A DNA stretch of 64,000 nt from an uncultured Allomuricauda sp. (GTDB lineage Bacteria; Bacteroidota; Bacteroidia; Flavobacteriales; Flavobacteriaceae), in contig NZ_CANLYK010000006.1 in the NCBI RefSeq assembly GCF_947495325.1, positions 1-64,000 of the forward strand, in the 5' to 3' direction. The position numbers and the translations under genes were made by a program. Of the stretch, positions 17,796 through 41,117 are shown piece after piece; position 1 is the first letter of the stretch, and each line of letters opens with the position of its first letter. Below the pieces are notes generated by a model. The model saw only the letters and a list, made by a program, of their open reading frames with translations. It was not told the DNA's origin and ran no database searches.

Positions 17796-17868
17796 CACGG
17801 GCGGAGAGGCTCGAACTCCCGACACCTGGTTTTGGAGACCAGTGCTCTACCAACTGAGCTACGCCCGT
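17796..17868 (-). tRNA. tRNA-Trp (CCA)
   Basis: A 73-nt cloverleaf. Acceptor ACGGGCG pairs with CGCCCGT, and the anticodon stem CTGGT/ACCAG encloses CTCCAAA, anticodon CCA. The T-loop GTTCGAG is present. The 3' CCA is not encoded. It sits between tuf and secE. Confidence 0.97.
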
Positions 17869-17935
17869 AAATTATGGCGTCTTACTATCTCAACTTTCAG
17901 AGATGAACTACACCCGCTTCTATTTACGTCGAAAG

Positions 17936-17957
17936 GTATCCGTCATCTGACGGACAC
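17936..17957 (-). terminator. Hairpin between tuf and tRNA-Trp
   Basis: GTGTCCGTCA and TGACGGATAC pair over 10 bp, extended by GG/CC and AAA/TTT beyond a small bulge. Only CTTTCG follows, with no clear U tract. It may be a weak terminator or a processing site ahead of tRNA-Trp and secE. Confidence 0.4.
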
Positions 17958-17990
17958 CCCTTTAACGTAAACTATGATTATATAATAATT

Positions 17991-19178
17991 TTAATCTAAA
18001 ATCTTAGTAACCTGACCAGCACCTACTGTTCTACCACCTTCACGGATAGCGAAACGTAGACCTACACTTAGTGCAATTGGCTGAATCAACTCTACAGTAA
18101 TAGTTAAGTTATCTCCAGGCATAACCATTTCAACTCCACTTGGAAGAGCAATGTTACCTGTTACATCTGTGGTTCTAACATAGAACTGTGGACGGTAGTT
18201 ATTATGGAAAGGAGTGTGACGACCACCTTCTTCTTTCTTAAGGATATAAACCTCAGCTTCAAACTTAGCATGTGGCTTAACAGAACCTGGCTTACAGATT
18301 ACCATTCCACGGCTAATTTGAGATTTCTCAATACCTCTTAACAAGATACCTACGTTATCTCCAGCTTCACCTCTATCCAATATTTTACGGAACATCTCTA
18401 CACCAGTAATTGTAGAAGCCAATTTCTCAGCCCCCATACCAATGATATCAACAGCATCCCCTGTGTTTGCAATACCAGTTTCGATACGTCCTGTAGCAAC
18501 AGTACCACGACCAGTAATCGTGAATACATCTTCAACAGGCATCAAGAAATCTTTTTCAACATCTCTTTTTGGCAATTCGATCCACTCATCCACAGCAGCC
18601 ATCAACTCCATTACAGTGTCAACCCATTTTTGCTCACCGTTAAGTGCTCCAAGGGCAGAACCAGAGATTACAGGTCCATTGTCTCCATCGTACTCATAGA
18701 AAGAAAGCAATTCTCTTACTTCCATTTCAACAAGCTCTAAAAGCTCCTCATCATCAACCATGTCAACTTTGTTCAAGAAAACAACGATTCTTGGAATACC
18801 TACCTGACGTCCAAGAAGGATGTGCTCACGAGTTTGTGGCATTGGTCCATCAGTTGCAGCAACAACCAATATTGCGCCATCCATTTGAGCAGCACCAGTA
18901 ACCATGTTCTTTACGTAATCCGCGTGACCTGGACAGTCAACGTGCGCATAGTGACGGTTTTCAGTTTGGTACTCCACGTGAGAAGTGTTGATGGTAATAC
19001 CCCTTTCTTTTTCTTCGGGAGCATTATCAATTGAATCAAAGCTTCTAAGCTCTGACAAGCCCGCATTTGCCAATACAGTAGTAATAGCAGCGGTCAACGT
19101 TGTTTTACCGTGATCCACGTGTCCAATAGTACCAATATTTAAGTGCGGTTTGGAACGATCAAAAGTTTCCTTTGCCAT
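17991..19178 (-). CDS. tuf: Elongation factor Tu
   Basis: GTPase that delivers aminoacyl-tRNA to the ribosome, 395 residues. G1 GHVDHGKT, G3 DCPGHADY and G4 NKVD are present, and the chain ends in [15 protein letters not shown]. It follows four tRNA genes and precedes tRNA-Trp and secE. No second tuf copy lies in this window. Confidence 0.99.
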
Positions 19179-19225
19179 TTTAAATAATTTTAATCTTAGT
19201 TTATATTAGTGTACAAATCGTTTTG

Positions 19226-19297
19226 AGCCAATGACGAGATTTGAACTCGTGACCTCTTCCTTACCAAGGAAACGCTCTACCCCTGAGCTACACCGGC
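19226..19297 (-). tRNA. tRNA-Thr (GGT)
   Basis: A 72-nt cloverleaf with acceptor GCCGGTG/CATTGGC, including two G-T pairs. The anticodon loop TTGGTAA gives GGT. It is the tRNA nearest tuf. Confidence 0.96.
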
Positions 19298-19376
19298 GTA
19301 AAGTGTTGAATCAACTACTTTAAAATAGTTCTCCCATAATTGGAAGAGATTCTTGCTTTCGCAAGGATGACTTTTG

Positions 19377-19449
19377 AGCGGGAGACCGGGTTCGAACCGG
19401 CGACATTCAGCTTGGAAGGCTGACGCTCTACCAACTGAGCTACTCCCGC
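19377..19449 (-). tRNA. tRNA-Gly (TCC)
   Basis: A 73-nt cloverleaf with acceptor GCGGGAG/CTCCCGC. The anticodon stem TCAGC/GCTGA encloses CTTCCAA, anticodon TCC. The T-loop GTTCGAA is present. Confidence 0.97.
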
Positions 19450-19530
19450 ATTTTTTTGGGTCTTACCCCAAATACTTTCAACATTTCAAAAAAACCAAAT
19501 CCTCCAGCTACTATTTAAAGTAACTTTAGT

Positions 19531-19612
<82 letters not shown>

Positions 19613-19633
19613 CCTTATTTTCAGTAACTTACG

Positions 19634-19707
19634 AGCCGATGGAGGGACTCGAACCCACGACCTGCTGATTACAAATCAGCTGCTCTAGCCAGCTGAGCTA
19701 CATCGGC
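19634..19707 (-). tRNA. tRNA-Thr (TGT)
   Basis: A 74-nt cloverleaf with acceptor GCCGATG/CATCGGC. The anticodon stem GCTGA/TCAGC encloses TTTGTAA, anticodon TGT. It is the first gene of the tRNA-tuf transcript. Confidence 0.97.
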
Positions 19708-34415: not shown

Positions 34416-34450
34416 AATCCCGTTCAAGTTTTTTGAACGGGATTTTTAAT
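34416..34450 (+). terminator. Terminator after yceI
   Basis: AATCCCGTTCAA pairs with TTGAACGGGATT over 12 bp with a 5-nt loop, followed by TTTAATTTT. It separates the marR unit from the trp operon. Confidence 0.92.
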
Positions 34451-34464
34451 TTTACAAATCAAAG

Positions 34465-34495
34465 TTTGTTTGTTACAATTTCCTTTTTATCTTTG
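34465..34495 (+). promoter_or_regulatory. trp operon promoter
   Basis: TTTG (34465-34468), 19 nt, TATCTTTG (34488-34495) is a textbook Bacteroidota promoter. The predicted start, 6-7 nt after the -7 element, falls on or next to the ATG of the leader peptide at 34501. Confidence 0.85.
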
Positions 34496-34500
34496 AAGCA

Positions 34501-34557
34501 ATGAATTTAGGAACAGTTAATACTTGGTGGTGGAATAATTTACGTCGAACGTCGTGA
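34501..34557 (+). CDS. trpL: trp operon leader peptide (18 aa)
   Basis: ATG to TGA encodes MNLGTVNTWWWNNLRRTS. Three Trp codons in a row (34525-34533) in an 18-residue peptide, directly after a strong promoter and before a terminator and trpE, are the hallmark of ribosome-mediated attenuation. The ORF track omits it because it is too short. Ribosome stalling at the Trp codons when Trp-tRNA is scarce would let the downstream genes be transcribed. The mRNA is probably leaderless or almost so. Confidence 0.9.
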   Translation: MNLGTVNTWWWNNLRRTS

Positions 34558-34583
34558 ACTAGTCCCCCATTGTAATCATATAG

Positions 34584-34611
34584 AGGCTTGTCATCACGAC
34601 AAGCCTTTTTT
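34584..34611 (+). terminator. trp attenuator terminator
   Basis: AGGCTTGTC (34584-34592), loop ATCAC, GACAAGCCT (34598-34606), then TTTTTT. It is 26 nt after the leader stop codon and 20 nt before trpE. The sequence TCACGAC (34594-34600), which covers part of the loop and 3' arm, can pair with GTCGTGA at 34551-34557, overlapping the leader stop. Confidence 0.9.
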
Positions 34612-34630
34612 AATTTATCACTATTTTGAA

Positions 34631-36028
34631 ATGACTTATAAACTAGACACACACTACAAGAAAATCCTGGCCGATACCATTACCCCAGTCAGTGTTTATC
34701 TTAAGATACGGGATAAGTTTCCCAACAGTATCCTATTGGAAAGTAGTGACTACCATGCCAACGACAATAGTTTCTCCTATATCTGTTGCAACCCCATTGC
34801 TTCCATAAAGGTGCAAAATGAAGTTATTACCCAAACCTATCCAGATGGTTCAACGGAGGAATTTTCAATTTCATCCACAACAGATGTAACCGAGGTCATC
34901 CATGATTTTAGTAAGAAGTTTTCGGTCTCCAGCAATGGTTTTAAATTTATAAACAATGGTCTTTTTGGATACATGTCTTATGATGCCGTCCGCTATTTTG
35001 AAGATGTAGAAATTTCATCCAAAGAAAACTCCATTCAAATACCAGATATCTATTATGCGGTATATCAGAACATCATCGCCATAAACCATTTTAAAAATGA
35101 GGCATACCTTTTTGCCCATTGTTTTGAAAGCGAAAGTAATGTTGATGAAATAGCACAATTGTTCAATGTAAGAAATTTTGCATCCTATAATTTTTCAAAA
35201 GAAGGGGAACCAAAATCCAATCTTGAAGATGAAGAATACAAAATGCATGTGGAATTGGCGAAAAAACACTGTCAGCGTGGAGATGTGTTCCAATTGGTTC
35301 TATCCCGAAGGTTCTCACAAGCCTTTAAAGGTGATGAGTTTAATGTATACCGGGCACTGCGCTCCATAAATCCATCACCATATCTATTCTATTTTGACTA
35401 TGGGGATTTTAAGATTTTTGGAAGCTCACCAGAAGCACAGCTCATTGTAAAAGAGGGAAAAGCAGAAATCCATCCCATTGCCGGTACATACAAAAGAACA
35501 GGGAATGATGAACAAGATGCAGAACTGGCAAAAAAATTGGCCCAGGATGATAAAGAAAACAGCGAACATGTAATGCTGGTTGATCTGGCCCGAAACGACC
35601 TCAGCAGAAATGGAAATACCGTAAATGTTGAAACTTATAGAGAGGTACAATACTTTTCCCATGTAATTCACTTGGTATCCAAGGTAACCGGGCAAAAAAT
35701 GAAGGATATTTCCACTATGAAAGTTGTTGCAGATACCTTCCCGGCCGGCACCTTGAGTGGTGCACCCAAACATATGGCCATGCAACTCATTGAAAAGTAT
35801 GAAAAGACGAGTCGTGCTTATTATGGCGGAGCCATTGGATTTATGGATTTCCACGGCAATTTCAACCATGCCATTATGATACGGACGTTTTTGAGCAAAA
35901 ACCATGAATTGCATTATCAGGCAGGAGCAGGTCTTGTTGCTGCATCTGACCCCGAAATGGAATTACAAGAAACCTATAACAAACTAGGTGCTTTGACCAA
36001 AGCATTGGAAATAGCGGAAACAATCTAA
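34631..36028 (+). CDS. trpE: Anthranilate synthase component I
   Basis: Forms anthranilate from chorismate with ammonia from TrpG; 465 residues. The Trp feedback site is suggested by ILLESSD near residue 36. The C-terminal chorismate-binding domain has FQLVLSRRFSQ, GSSPEAQL, HPIAGTYKRTGN and the end motif QAGAGLVAASDPEMELQET. It is the first structural gene after the attenuator; trpG follows after 2 bp. Confidence 0.97.
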   Translation: MTYKLDTHYKKILADTITPVSVYLKIRDKFPNSILLESSDYHANDNSFSYICCNPIASIKVQNEVITQTYPDGSTEEFSISSTTDVTEVIHDFSKKFSVSSNGFKFINNGLFGYMSYDAVRYFEDVEISSKENSIQIPDIYYAVYQNIIAINHFKNEAYLFAHCFESESNVDEIAQLFNVRNFASYNFSKEGEPKSNLEDEEYKMHVELAKKHCQRGDVFQLVLSRRFSQAFKGDEFNVYRALRSINPSPYLFYFDYGDFKIFGSSPEAQLIVKEGKAEIHPIAGTYKRTGNDEQDAELAKKLAQDDKENSEHVMLVDLARNDLSRNGNTVNVETYREVQYFSHVIHLVSKVTGQKMKDISTMKVVADTFPAGTLSGAPKHMAMQLIEKYEKTSRAYYGGAIGFMDFHGNFNHAIMIRTFLSKNHELHYQAGAGLVAASDPEMELQETYNKLGALTKALEIAETI

Positions 36029-36030
36029 GC

Positions 36031-36612
36031 ATGGGAAGAAAGATTTTAATGATTGACAATTACGATAGTTTCACTTATAATTTAGTGCACTATCTGGAGG
36101 ATTTAGATTGCGATGTTACAGTAAAGCGTAATGACCAATTGACTTTGGAGGAGGTTGAAGCTTTTGACGAAATTGTCCTGTCTCCCGGTCCTGGAATTCC
36201 AGATGAAGCGGGATTACTGAAAGAAATTATCAAAACCTATGCGCCCACAAAACGGATTCTTGGGGTCTGTTTGGGTCAACAAGCCATTGGGGAGGTTTTT
36301 GGTGGACAACTGGTAAACCTTGATCAGGTGTATCACGGAATTGCAACAACGATTACAATCACCAAAAAAGACTCCATATTTGAAGGTATGCCAGATAATA
36401 TCCAGGTAGGAAGGTACCATTCTTGGGTTGTCCATCCGGATTTACCGGAAAGCTTAGAAGCAACCTCAGTAGATGAGAACGGACAAATAATGTCCCTGAA
36501 ACACAAAACGTATGATGTTACGGCGGTTCAGTTTCATCCAGAATCCGTTTTGACACCAGAAGGAAAAAAAATGCTAAAAAATTGGTTAGAATATGAAAGA
36601 GACTCTCAATAG
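36031..36612 (+). CDS. trpG: Anthranilate synthase component II (glutamine amidotransferase)
   Basis: A 193-residue class I amidotransferase. The nucleophile Cys is in GVCLGQQAIGE (about 79), with His-Glu in VQFHPESVLTP near the C-terminus. LSPGPGIPDEAG is the oxyanion strand. It overlaps trpD by 20 bp, indicating coupled translation. PabA-type dual use is possible, as no separate pabA is seen in this window. Confidence 0.96.
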   Translation: MGRKILMIDNYDSFTYNLVHYLEDLDCDVTVKRNDQLTLEEVEAFDEIVLSPGPGIPDEAGLLKEIIKTYAPTKRILGVCLGQQAIGEVFGGQLVNLDQVYHGIATTITITKKDSIFEGMPDNIQVGRYHSWVVHPDLPESLEATSVDENGQIMSLKHKTYDVTAVQFHPESVLTPEGKKMLKNWLEYERDSQ

Positions 36613-37585
36613 ACTCATCAATCACGAAATCCTATCAAAAGGCGATGCCAAGCAAATCTTGGTCAACATTGCCAAAGGGGATTACAATACATCTCAGATT
36701 GCCGCCTTTCTGACTGTGTATATGATGCGTAGCATCACCATTGAAGAACTGGAAGGTTTTAGAGATGCGCTTTTAGAACTTTGTTTGGCCGTAGATTTAT
36801 CTGAATACAACCCAATTGATTTGTGTGGTACCGGAGGTGATGGTAAGGATACCTTCAATATATCCACATTAGCATCTTTTGTTACCGCTGGAGCCGGGAT
36901 AAAAGTGACCAAACATGGAAATTACGGTGTTTCTTCTAAATGCGGCAGCAGCAATGTCATGGAGTTTTTGGGCATCAAATTCAGCAATGAAGCTGATTTT
37001 CTTAAGAAATCCATTGATGAAGCAGGAATATGTGTTTTGCATGCTCCCCTATTCCACCCAGCCATGAAAAATGTGGCACCAATCCGAAGGGAACTAGCTG
37101 TGAAAACTTTTTTCAACATGTTGGGACCAATGGTGAATCCGGCATTTCCAAAAAATCAAATGGTAGGCGTGTTCAATTTGGAGTTGGCCAGGATGTATGG
37201 ATATCTCTATCAAAACACGGATAAAAATTTCACCGTGCTTCATGCTTTGGATGGCTATGACGAAATCTCCTTGACGGGAGCTACAAAAACCATCTCAAAA
37301 GATTCCGAAGGCATGTTGACTCCGGCAGATTTTGGAGTAGAAAGCATTTTGCAAGAAGAGATTGTTGGAGGAGAAGATGTAGCGCAATCCGCCCAAATAT
37401 TTCTGGATATTTTAAATGGTAAGGGTACAGAAGCACAAAACAATGTGGTCTGTGCTAACGCCGGAATTGCCATTGCAACCGTTGAAGGCATAACACCAAA
37501 ACAAGGTTTTGAAAAAGCAAAAGAAGCGCTCCTAAGCAAAAAAGGACTGGGGGCTTTAAAAAAATTACAAGAGATAAGTGCATAA
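36593..37585 (+). CDS. trpD: Anthranilate phosphoribosyltransferase
   Basis: Transfers phosphoribosyl from PRPP to anthranilate; 330 residues. The PRPP-binding GTGGDGKDTFNIST, the KHGNYGVSSKCGSSNVMEFLG motif and the DGYDEISLT motif are present. It overlaps the end of trpG and abuts trpC (stop TAA and ATG share a base). Confidence 0.97.
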   Translation: MKETLNRLINHEILSKGDAKQILVNIAKGDYNTSQIAAFLTVYMMRSITIEELEGFRDALLELCLAVDLSEYNPIDLCGTGGDGKDTFNISTLASFVTAGAGIKVTKHGNYGVSSKCGSSNVMEFLGIKFSNEADFLKKSIDEAGICVLHAPLFHPAMKNVAPIRRELAVKTFFNMLGPMVNPAFPKNQMVGVFNLELARMYGYLYQNTDKNFTVLHALDGYDEISLTGATKTISKDSEGMLTPADFGVESILQEEIVGGEDVAQSAQIFLDILNGKGTEAQNNVVCANAGIAIATVEGITPKQGFEKAKEALLSKKGLGALKKLQEISA

Positions 37586-38370
37586 TGAACATCCTTGATA
37601 AAATAGTAGCCGATAAACGCAAAGAGGTCGATATAAAAAAGGCATTGATTCCAGTTTCGCAATTGGAACAAGCTGTTCTTTATAATCGAGACACGGTTTC
37701 TTTAGCTACTTCATTAAGAAATAGCAATTCGGGAATTATTGCGGAGCATAAGCGGCGTTCCCCCTCCAAATCAGTCATCAATCAAAGTTTGAATGTTCAA
37801 GATGTTGCCAAGGGATATGAGGAAGCTGGGGTTTGTGGTATGTCCGTTTTAACCGATGGTAAATATTTTGGCGGATCTTTGGATGATTTGTTGCTGGCTA
37901 GAGCATCCGTAAAAATGCCACTGTTGCGAAAAGAGTTTATCATTGACGAGTACCAAATTGTGGAAGCCAGAGCTCATGGCGCTGATGTAATTCTTCTGAT
38001 AGCTGCCATTTTGAACAAGGATGAAATCAAAAATCTATCAGAAACAGCTAAAGGTTTGGGATTGGATGTGCTTTTGGAAGTTCACAACGAAGAGGAATTG
38101 CATAAATCCATCATGCCAAGTTTGGATATGTTGGGTGTAAACAACAGGAACCTAAAAACTTTTGAGGTGAGTTTGGAAACCAGTAAAAGTCTATCAGCAT
38201 TGATTCCGGATGAATTTGTAAAAATTTCGGAAAGTGGTATAAGCTCCATTGAAGCGATTAAAGATTTAAAACAATATGGCTACCAAGGTTTTCTTATTGG
38301 GGAGAATTTCATGAAAACGGAGAACCCCGGAAAACACGCCACTGAATTTATAAATGAATTAAAACAATGA
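37585..38370 (+). CDS. trpC: Indole-3-glycerol phosphate synthase
   Basis: TIM-barrel enzyme of 261 residues that closes the indole ring. IIAEHKRRSPSKSVI near 49-63 holds the catalytic Lys and Ser, LLRKEFIIDEYQI and LLEVHNEEEL follow, GVNNRNLKTFEV is the Asn motif, and SESGI near the end binds phosphate. It is a monofunctional TrpC: trpF is a separate gene. The palindromic repeat element begins directly after its stop codon. Confidence 0.97.
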   Translation: MNILDKIVADKRKEVDIKKALIPVSQLEQAVLYNRDTVSLATSLRNSNSGIIAEHKRRSPSKSVINQSLNVQDVAKGYEEAGVCGMSVLTDGKYFGGSLDDLLLARASVKMPLLRKEFIIDEYQIVEARAHGADVILLIAAILNKDEIKNLSETAKGLGLDVLLEVHNEEELHKSIMPSLDMLGVNNRNLKTFEVSLETSKSLSALIPDEFVKISESGISSIEAIKDLKQYGYQGFLIGENFMKTENPGKHATEFINELKQ

Positions 38371-38450
38371 TGTCATTTCGAACTGTCAGACTGAGCGCAG
38401 TCGAAGTCAAAGTGAGAAATCTAGATTTCTCCCATTCGGTCGAAATGACA
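38371..38450. repeat. 80-bp palindromic repeat element between trpC and trpF
   Basis: Perfect 11-bp terminal inverted repeats TGTCATTTCGA and TCGAAATGACA bound the element. Inside are a GACTG/CAGTC hairpin with GCGCAGTCGA and the 18-bp palindrome GAGAAATCTAGATTTCTC (38414-38431). It starts right after the trpC TGA. It has no coding content. It shares its ends and its GCAGTCGA core with the element inside trpF. Confidence 0.85.
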
Positions 38451-38461
38451 AAACAAACGCT

Positions 38462-39178
38462 ATGAAACTAAAAGTCTGTGGAATGAAACATAATCCCATT
38501 GAGGTTGCCCAACTGCAACCAGACTACTTGGGCTTTATTTTTTGGGAACCTTCCACACGCTATTTTGATGGTGATATGCCGGATTTACCAAAATCCATAA
38601 AGAAAATAGGTGTCTTTGTAGATGCTACAATTGAAGATGTCCTCCAAAAAGTTGAAAAATATAATCTTGATGGGGTGCAGTTGCATGGAAAGGAAAGTCC
38701 TGAATTTTGTCGCGACTTAAAAGAAAACTTTCTGTCATTTCGAGCACAGTCGAGAAAAAGGAAAGTTGATGATTCAATTGAGGTCTCGACTGCGCTCGAC
38801 CTGACAGGATTGGAAGTCATCAAAGTATTTTCCATTAAAGATGAATTTGATTTTTCGGTCCTTAAGCTCTACGAAGCATCTTGCGATTATTTTCTATTCG
38901 ATACCAAAGGGAAGCTTCCTGGTGGCAATGGATATACTTTTGATTGGTCTGTGTTGAATAACTACCCGTCAACAAAACCATTTTTCCTGAGTGGTGGAAT
39001 CGGATTGGAAACGGCTTCCGAACTTCAAGCATTTTTGAAAAGTCCAGCATCAAAAAAATGCCATGCCATAGATGTGAATAGTCGATTTGAAATACAACCT
39101 GGGTTAAAAAACAGTGAAGAGTTAAAAGAATTTAAGAGGTTGCTCACCAGCAACTTTGAACCAAATACTGACAACTAA
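38462..39178 (+). CDS. trpF: Phosphoribosylanthranilate isomerase with an in-frame repeat insertion
   Basis: TIM-barrel isomerase of the Trp pathway. The product is 238 residues; TrpF proteins usually have about 200-215. The catalytic Cys (LKVCGM, residue 5) and Asp (YFLFDTKG) are present, and the phosphate loop SGGIG is intact. Residues about 91-115 ([12 protein letters not shown] then [10 protein letters not shown]) are unlike any TrpF and are encoded by a palindromic element. They fall in a linker between [17 protein letters not shown] and LEVIKVFS, where a surface loop is expected, so activity is probably kept. It overlaps trpB by 1 bp. Confidence 0.95.
38732..38807. repeat. 76-bp palindromic element inside the trpF reading frame
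   Basis: Left arm CTGTCATTTCGAGCACAGTCGAGA (24 nt) and right arm TCTCGACTGCGCTCGACCTGACAG are inverted repeats with three mismatches around a 28-nt centre. It starts on a codon boundary (38732 is 270 nt after the ATG) and keeps the frame. It shares TGTCATTTCGA and the GCAGTCGA core with the element at 38371. Confidence 0.88.
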
Positions 39179-40359
39179 TGAGTTATCACGTTAATGAAAA
39201 AGGATATTACGGAGAATTTGGAGGGGCTTTCATTCCAGAAATGCTTTATCCAAATACGGAAGAGCTCCGTCAAAATTACATCCGCATAATGGAAGAACCT
39301 TCATTTAAAGAAGAGTTCGATCAATTACTTAAGGATTATGTTGGGCGTCCTACCCCACTCTATTTTGCAGAAAGATTATCGAAACAATATCAAACCAAAA
39401 TCTATCTAAAACGGGAAGATTTATGCCATACTGGTGCCCACAAGGTCAATAATACGATTGGGCAAATCCTTATGGCAAAAAAACTGGGCAAAAACAGAAT
39501 TATTGCAGAAACTGGGGCTGGCCAACACGGGGTTGCAACGGCAACCGTTTGTGCTTTGGCCGGAATTGAATGTGTGGTCTATATGGGTGAAATCGATATT
39601 GCGCGTCAAGCCCCAAATGTTGCCCGAATGAAAATGTTGGGTGCAGAAGTACGCCCGGCATTATCCGGAAGTAGAACCTTAAAAGATGCCACAAATGAGG
39701 CCATCCGTGATTGGATCAACAATCCTGTGGATACGCATTACATTATTGGTTCGGTTGTTGGCCCTCATCCCTATCCGGATATGGTTGCACGGTTCCAATC
39801 CGTAATTTCGGAGGAAATCAAAACGCAATTGTTGGAAAAAGAAGGTGTTGAAAATCCAGATTATGTAGTTGCATGTGTAGGTGGAGGAAGTAACGCTGCC
39901 GGAGCTTTTTATCATTATTTGGATATTCCAGATATTGGAATAATCGCGGTAGAAGCTGCGGGAAAAGGTATCGATACAGGTGAAAGTGCAGCAACCTCAG
40001 CTTTAGGAAAAATAGGGGTTATTCACGGTAGTAAAACGCTGTTAATGCAAACCAATGATGGTCAAATCACAGAACCTTATTCCATTTCGGCAGGATTGGA
40101 TTACCCTGGTGTTGGACCAATGCATGCCCATTTGTTTCAATCCGGTAGGGCAGAATTTATCTCGATTACGGATGATGAAGCCATGATGGCAGGATTGGCA
40201 TTAAGCAAACTGGAAGGTATTATTCCCGCCATAGAATCATCACATGCATTTGCCATTTTAGAACATAAAAAATTCAACCCATCAGATATTGTAGTCATTA
40301 ACCTTTCTGGAAGGGGCGATAAAGATTTACAAAACTATATTGACTATTTCAAGCTATGA
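39178..40359 (+). CDS. trpB: Tryptophan synthase beta chain
   Basis: PLP enzyme that joins indole and serine; 393 residues. The Lys Schiff base is in [15 protein letters not shown], the GVATATVCA loop and GGGSNAAG phosphate cup are present, and the chain ends in [14 protein letters not shown]. It is the common TrpB1 form. Its start overlaps the trpF stop and its stop overlaps the trpA start. Confidence 0.98.
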
Positions 40360-41117
40360 ATAGAATCAACCAAAAACTAAAAGAGGACAAAAAACTCCTC
40401 TCCATTTACTTTACGGCTGGTTATCCCAACTTAAATGATACCGCCGGAATAATTCAAGACCTTGAAAAGCAAGGTGTTGATATGATTGAGATTGGATTGC
40501 CTTTTAGTGATCCCTTGGCAGATGGACCAACTATACAGGAAAGTTCAACAGCTGCTTTAAAAAATGGTATGCATACGGAATTGCTGTTTGAGCAGCTTGG
40601 AGATATTAGAAAAACCGTTTCCATTCCGCTGATCATGATGGGCTATTTTAATCCTGTTTTGCAATATGGGGTGGAAGCCTTTTGTAAGCGATGTCAAGAA
40701 ATTGGCATTGACGGGATTATTTTGCCCGATTTACCCTTGGATGTCTTTCAGAAAGACTACGAGGCTATTTTTAGAAAATATGGCCTCATCAATGTTTTTT
40801 TGATAACACCCCAAACAAGTGAAGCTCGTATTCGTGAAATTGATGCAGCTTCTGACGGTTTCATCTATATGGTAAGTTCTGCCAGTACCACAGGCGCAAA
40901 AGCAGGTTTTGGAGAAGAAACAGAGGCCTATTTTGATAGAATAAAGAGCATGAACCTACAAAACCCTCAAATTGTTGGCTTTGGCATCAGTAATTCTGAT
41001 ACCTTTAAGCAGGCCACCCAGAAAACAAAAGGTGCTATTATTGGCTCCGCTTTTATAAAGCATTTGACTCAAAATGGAGTTGAAAAAATTGAAGGGTTTG
41101 TAAGGGGAATTCGCTAA
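40356..41117 (+). CDS. trpA: Tryptophan synthase alpha chain
   Basis: Cleaves indole-3-glycerol phosphate to indole; 253 residues. The catalytic Glu is in [19 protein letters not shown] and the Asp in [12 protein letters not shown]. The phosphate site is GFGISNSDT. It is the last gene of trpEGDCFBA; the unrelated M20 peptidase follows after 21 bp. Confidence 0.97.

Follow-up and report, generated by a model that had tools for sequence, protein, structure and literature searches.

A probable trp attenuator of the Bacteroid-trp family (RF01692) with a predicted near-leaderless start in a Flavobacteriaceae genome

The stretch of DNA analysed here (the window, 64,000 nucleotides) stems from a Flavobacteriaceae genome, and the trpE genes closest to its own among named records are those of Flagellimonas and Allomuricauda. 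A trp leader region composed of a promoter, a leader ORF and an intrinsic terminator precedes the structural genes trpE, G, D, C, F, B and A (Table 1). When the sequence was re-read, all positions that a first-pass annotation had given for promoter, leader, terminator and trpE were found to be correct. The promoter (TTTG-19-TATCTTTG) is of the Bacteroidota sigma-A type, the leader ORF carries three tandem Trp codons, and the terminator reads AGGCTTGTC-ATCAC-GACAAGCCT (34584-34606), followed by a T-tract. A terminator-like inverted repeat 3' of the upstream YceI family gene is predicted to insulate the operon from upstream transcription. Elsewhere in the window, five tRNA genes are clustered on the minus strand (17796-19707).

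Table 1. Features of the trp leader region and operon (window positions).
Feature	Position	Strand	Remarks
Terminator-like inverted repeat AATCCCGTTCAA...TTGAACGGGATT with T-run	34416..34444	+	sequence read directly
trp leader region (promoter, leader ORF, intrinsic terminator)	34465-34611	+	sequence read directly
-33 element TTTG	34465-34468	+	19 nt upstream of -7 box
-7 box TATCTTTG (TAnnTTTG)	34488-34495	+	sequence read directly
Predicted transcription start	34500	+	from TAnnTTTG geometry in F. psychrophilum and F. johnsoniae
Leader peptide ORF MNLGTVNTWWWNNLRRTS	34501..34557	+	18 codons; ATG 34501, stop 34555-34557
1:2 hairpin (anti-antiterminator/pause hairpin)	34521..34574	+	predicted fold, -14.7 kcal/mol
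Three tandem Trp codons TGGTGGTGG (control codons)	34525-34533	+	codons 9-11; also in 5' arm of 1:2 hairpin
1:2 inner helix UUUACG:CGUGAA	34539-34544 : 34553-34558	+	predicted fold
Region 2, GTCGTGA	34551-34557	+	partner of region 1 or of terminator loop
Intrinsic terminator	34584..34611	+	stem 34584-34592 : 34598-34606, T-tract to 34611, -13.8 kcal/mol
Region 3, TCACGAC	34594-34600	+	terminator loop and first three 3' arm bases; antiterminator target
trpE	34631..36028	+	leading gene of trpEGDCFBA
trpEGDCFBA operon	34631 to 41117	+	structural genes trpE, G, D, C, F, B, A

The covariance model of the Rfam family RF01692 (Bacteroid-trp; gathering threshold 49 bits) matched positions 34481-34592 with 58.2 bits over model positions 1-131; together with the trpEGDCFBA genes downstream, this bears out the initial reading of the element as a trp attenuator. 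Bacteroid-trp was listed in 2010 as a candidate structured RNA (Weinberg et al., PMC2864571), and it was present in 233 of the 301 Flavobacteriaceae genomes. The element shares with the family the full-model match, the phylum, the position before trp genes, the Trp-codon leader and the same 1:2 hairpin, but the model stops at the 5' arm of the terminator and includes neither terminator loop nor antiterminator pairing, nor a statement on promoter or start site. About 200 relatives were compared overall. Every trpE locus examined was preceded by a WWW leader, including ten (L034-L038, L053, L054, L059, L095 and L107) that first seemed to lack a leader and carry it ~480 nt further upstream. A small ORF lies between attenuator and trpE in these ten; judged by eye, it resembles the C terminus of a GIY-YIG-type protein, and a repeat like TTTCCGCGAAGGCGGAAAT is found nearby.

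The position of the transcription start was predicted from promoter geometry. The TAnnTTTG box occupies positions -12 to -5 in F. psychrophilum (PMC9723704), and 4-5 nt separate it from the start in F. johnsoniae (PMC6847099); this geometry would place +1 at 34500 or 34501, 0-1 nt before the leader ATG. The spacing between box and ATG is conserved among relatives and was bimodal in the 175 distinct leaders counted, with 4-8 nt in 94 and 14-24 nt in 64. At a chance rate of ~0.0012 boxes per position, about one leader with 4-8 nt spacing was expected. The spacing was exactly 5 nt in 60 of the 94 short-spaced leaders, and 52 of the 94 had a TTTG upstream of the box at a distance of exactly 19 nt. 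The clade to which the window belongs (Flagellimonas, Maribacter, Arenibacter, Cellulophaga and Eudoraea) is short-spaced, as are some members of a second family in this order (L240, L242, L244, L245 and others); the longer spacing occurs in other Flavobacteriaceae, one large genus (g129) among them. Leaders with 14-24 nt are here called Flavobacterium-type, a provisional label based on the leader sequences. These counts support, as a prediction, the near-leaderless start proposed in the first-pass annotation; the short spacing is a clade trait. In one relative inside the near-leaderless clade (L082), 30 nt separate the -7 box from the leader ATG and the usual place holds no ATG, so the short leader is not indispensable.

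In the predicted 1:2 hairpin, the structure modelled in RF01692, the Trp codons pair with 34563-34574, 3' of the stop codon. The same arrangement recurred among relatives: the Trp codons had their partner 3' of the stop codon in 155 of 168 predicted folds, and CGUGA was paired upstream in 147 of 164. The inner helix is mostly CUUACG:CGUGAG in relatives, its outermost pair being C-G in 92 sequences and U-A in 54. In an alignment of 168 Flavobacteriaceae leaders this pair (34539:34558) scored highest of 7021 column pairs and was the sole pair near significance, reaching only E=0.27 against a tree-based null. Near-significant pairs are few because the motif is nearly invariant and the inner helices of Flavobacterium-type leaders align poorly. 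The weak tree-based covariation was therefore replaced by own-versus-cross permutation tests on more distant families, in which the 5' half of each leader was paired with its own 3' half and the result compared with that for the 3' halves of other leaders. Mean duplex energies favoured the own partner, with z=-13.3 in the diverse set, -6.7 in the Flavobacteriaceae sample (f1), -6.9 in family f5 and -7.5 in family f2. A 1:2 hairpin that contains the control codons is thus predicted here and family-wide.

The contact between region 2 and region 3 is supported by the same kind of comparison. A Watson-Crick match of 7 bp between the leader tail and the loop plus 3' arm arose in 0.5% of shuffles. 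GTCGTGA:TCACGAC is the commonest version among relatives, and both species of one genus (L164 and L213) carry the compensated version GTCGCAA:TTGCGAC; their 1:2 inner helix becomes TTGCGA:TCGCAA, so that all three strands change jointly. In the second of these species one of the three Trp codons is gone (...IGWW...), and both RNA pairings are retained. Family f5, sampled so that every genome searched came from a different genus, contributed the versions TCGGATGA:TCATCCGA, CCGGGTG:CACCCGG, GTCGAGTA:TACTCGGC and CGAGTGAG:TTCACTCG. Own-versus-cross complementarity of region 2 with the loop and 3' arm gave z=5.9 in f5, 3.5 in f2 and 9.0 in all diverse leaders. Within Flavobacteriaceae both region 2 and the loop hardly vary, and covariation there rests on few changes. 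The first-pass annotation had proposed GTCGTGA:TCACGAC as the antiterminator and named covariation between 34551-34557 and 34594-34600 as a check; the joint changes in relatives, the compensated versions and the match to the own loop uphold the pairing. In 33 of the 175 loci CGTGA was kept although its TGA does not end the leader ORF; it lies there either 4-5 nt ahead of the stop or 6-14 nt past it. Its conservation is therefore not that of a stop codon. Complementarity of region 2 to the classical target, the terminator 5' arm, gave no signal in f5 (z=-0.4); f2 did show some (z=3.0), and part of this family has a 5'-arm antiterminator match (L242, with TCAAAGTC:GACTTTGA, and L252, for example). 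In the window, no antiterminator match to the 5' arm exceeded 4 bp. The comparisons support GTCGTGA:TCACGAC as a real and unusual RNA-RNA contact.

Pairing of regions 2 and 3 overlaps the loop and three of the nine stem pairs of the terminator, and the two structures are mutually exclusive for the loop and these three apical pairs only; the 6 basal pairs might in principle close into a shortened stem, though only as a pseudoknot. With RNA available up to 34600, the antiterminator was the most stable structure (-12.7). Once 34606 had emerged, with region 1 masked, the full terminator (-14.2, ribosome stalled at Trp11) exceeded it. The terminator is thus favoured at equilibrium even with region 1 masked, and antitermination would have to be kinetic.

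A design of three parts only, with leader, antiterminator and terminator and with GTCGTGA freed by the ribosome alone, had been put forward in the first-pass annotation, which saw no 1:2 pairing. The 2:3 pairing and the ribosome geometry would work without that hairpin, but a stable one is predicted at this very locus (-14.7 kcal/mol), takes up the Trp codons and CGTGA, and is the structure that RF01692 models; region 1 of the relatives fits its own downstream region far better than those of others (z=-13.3). The denial of 1:2 pairing is refuted by these data, and the design without it is not supported and highly improbable. It is similarly hard to credit that the conserved loop TCACGAC serves chiefly another purpose, for instance in a terminated leader acting in trans as an sRNA, with its match to region 2 being secondary. 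A terminated leader would indeed be a short, conserved RNA, and rnTrpL of Sinorhizobium offers a precedent (PMC7298713), but the own-versus-cross complementarity of region 2 and loop (z=9.0) and the joint changes in L164 and family f5 call for pairing in cis, to which a second function could be added.

It is somewhat less improbable, yet still unlikely, that in vivo a different start further upstream gives the transcript a normal 5' UTR, in which case it would not be leaderless and the TATCTTTG box would be minor. In flavobacteria a minority of mRNAs is leaderless (5.5%; PMC9723704), F. johnsoniae leaders are mostly longer than 10 nt (PMC6847099), and the ATG stands 14-24 nt from the box in Flavobacterium-type relatives and 30 nt from it in L082. 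Against this stand the constant spacing of about 5 nt that much of the clade shares (94 leaders with 4-8 nt), the TTTG that precedes the box by 19 nt in 52 of these leaders, and the repeat at 34416-34444, which would cut off transcription from the preceding gene. Near-leaderless transcription from 34500 is the preferred prediction.

Taken together, the element is very probably a ribosome-mediated attenuator of the trp operon, a member of RF01692 with a predicted start at 34500 that switches between 1:2, 2:3 and 3:4 pairings. Like trpL of E. coli it combines tandem Trp codons, alternative 1:2, 2:3 and 3:4 structures and an intrinsic terminator before trpE. In E. coli, trpL has a 5' leader that carries a Shine-Dalgarno site, and the terminator 5' arm is what the antiterminator pairs with; the present element is predicted to lack a 5' leader, and its antiterminator targets the loop and apical 3' arm. 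An 18-codon ORF with WWW, an intrinsic terminator, a 1:2 hairpin and an antiterminator exclusive of the terminator for the loop and three apical pairs only were all found, and sequestration of the 5' arm is a variable detail that is not required for the mechanism class. The element is accordingly placed in RF01692 and taken to operate in the manner of an E. coli-type attenuator without being a copy of one.

The predicted start has its closest counterparts in other phyla. The ilvBNC attenuator of Corynebacterium glutamicum is leaderless, with the start one nucleotide before the leader ATG (PMC11857589), and the trpL transcript of Sinorhizobium meliloti is leaderless as well (PMC7298713); in both, as predicted here, transcription begins at or one nucleotide before the start codon of the leader peptide. 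These cases use other promoters, and the near-leaderless attenuator of Flavobacteriales appears to be convergent with them. A literature search for leaderless attenuators found no description from Bacteroidota. The catalogued RNA family, the clade-specific spacing and the leaderless attenuators of other phyla are points that the first-pass annotation did not contain.

Start site, stalling and read-through are deduced from the anatomy of the locus and from the known E. coli mechanism, and the following course of events may be envisaged. Transcription would start at 34500, and the ribosome would begin the leader peptide at the extreme 5' end of the RNA. In untranslated RNA the 1:2 hairpin (34521-34574) would sequester CGUGA, the terminator (34584-34606) would form and transcription would halt. 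When charged tRNA-Trp is scarce, the ribosome would stall on the UGG run and cover region 1, including UUUACG (34539-34544); by ribosome footprint lengths as generally known, a stall with Trp codon 10 or 11 in the A site would cover the RNA to ~34541-34544 and leave 34551-34557 free. The freed region 2 (GUCGUGA) could then pair with UCACGAC as this stretch, made up of the terminator loop and the start of the 3' arm, emerges. The target starts in the loop, so that region 2 would meet bases leaving RNA polymerase before the 3' arm, and such early capture of the loop would prevent the apical GUC:GAC pairs from closing. Loss of the loop and three apical base pairs would block the terminator, and trpE would be transcribed. 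With ample Trp, translation would proceed to the stop codon, where the ribosome would cover region 2 and let the terminator form.

The RF01692 kind of element and leaderless attenuation as a phenomenon are already known, and the locus taken alone is an ordinary, recognisable trp attenuator. What is added lies at the level of the family, as judged from sequence comparison: a putative antiterminator that is missing from the Rfam model, its predicted target in the loop and 3' arm, and a predicted, clade-specific near-leaderless start. A broader proposal, for which we see even chances, is that Bacteroid-trp forms a distinct attenuator subtype: its antiterminator would capture the terminator loop and apical 3' arm before the hairpin nucleates, rather than the 5' arm, and in much of Flavobacteriales leaderless initiation at a near-leaderless start would gate trp transcription. 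If this is true, such gating would operate in a phylum largely without Shine-Dalgarno sites, which Bacteroidota mRNAs lack (PMC6847099). A little-explained motif becomes a testable three-state switch with named base pairs, and the trp leader can serve as a small natural reporter of leaderless initiation and of how transcription and translation are coupled in Bacteroidota. Since close relatives divide naturally into those with near-leaderless spacing and those with 14-24 nt, what the absence of a leader contributes can be tested directly.

Similar arrangements were sought elsewhere. The pattern TATATTTG-N4-7-ATG gave 23 matches across the whole genome against 9 in the reversed control, with no further clear attenuator among them, and a search of 60 relatives for near-leaderless His leaders (TATATTTG plus CAYCAYCAY) gave three matches, of which one was convincing. 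This leader (L263, ~1501-1700), from another family of the same order, stands before hisG; it encodes MNICAHQHHHHIHRESDRKC (HQHHHHIH), begins 6 nt after a TAnnTTTG box and is followed by a strong terminator. The window's own genome also contains a His attenuator-like leader before hisG (L289; contig C1, ~1178-1250), which encodes MRNKNTHHHHFYTCTQAR with HHHH, starts 8 nt after the TAnnTTTG-type box TACTTTTG and is likewise followed by a terminator. Both resemble the trp leader in having an ORF rich in one amino acid near a TAnnTTTG box and then a terminator. The hisG leader of the window's own genome differs from the trp leader in its His codons and in its likely antiterminator CTCAGGCG, which, judged by eye, pairs in the classical manner with the terminator 5' arm CGTTTGAG.
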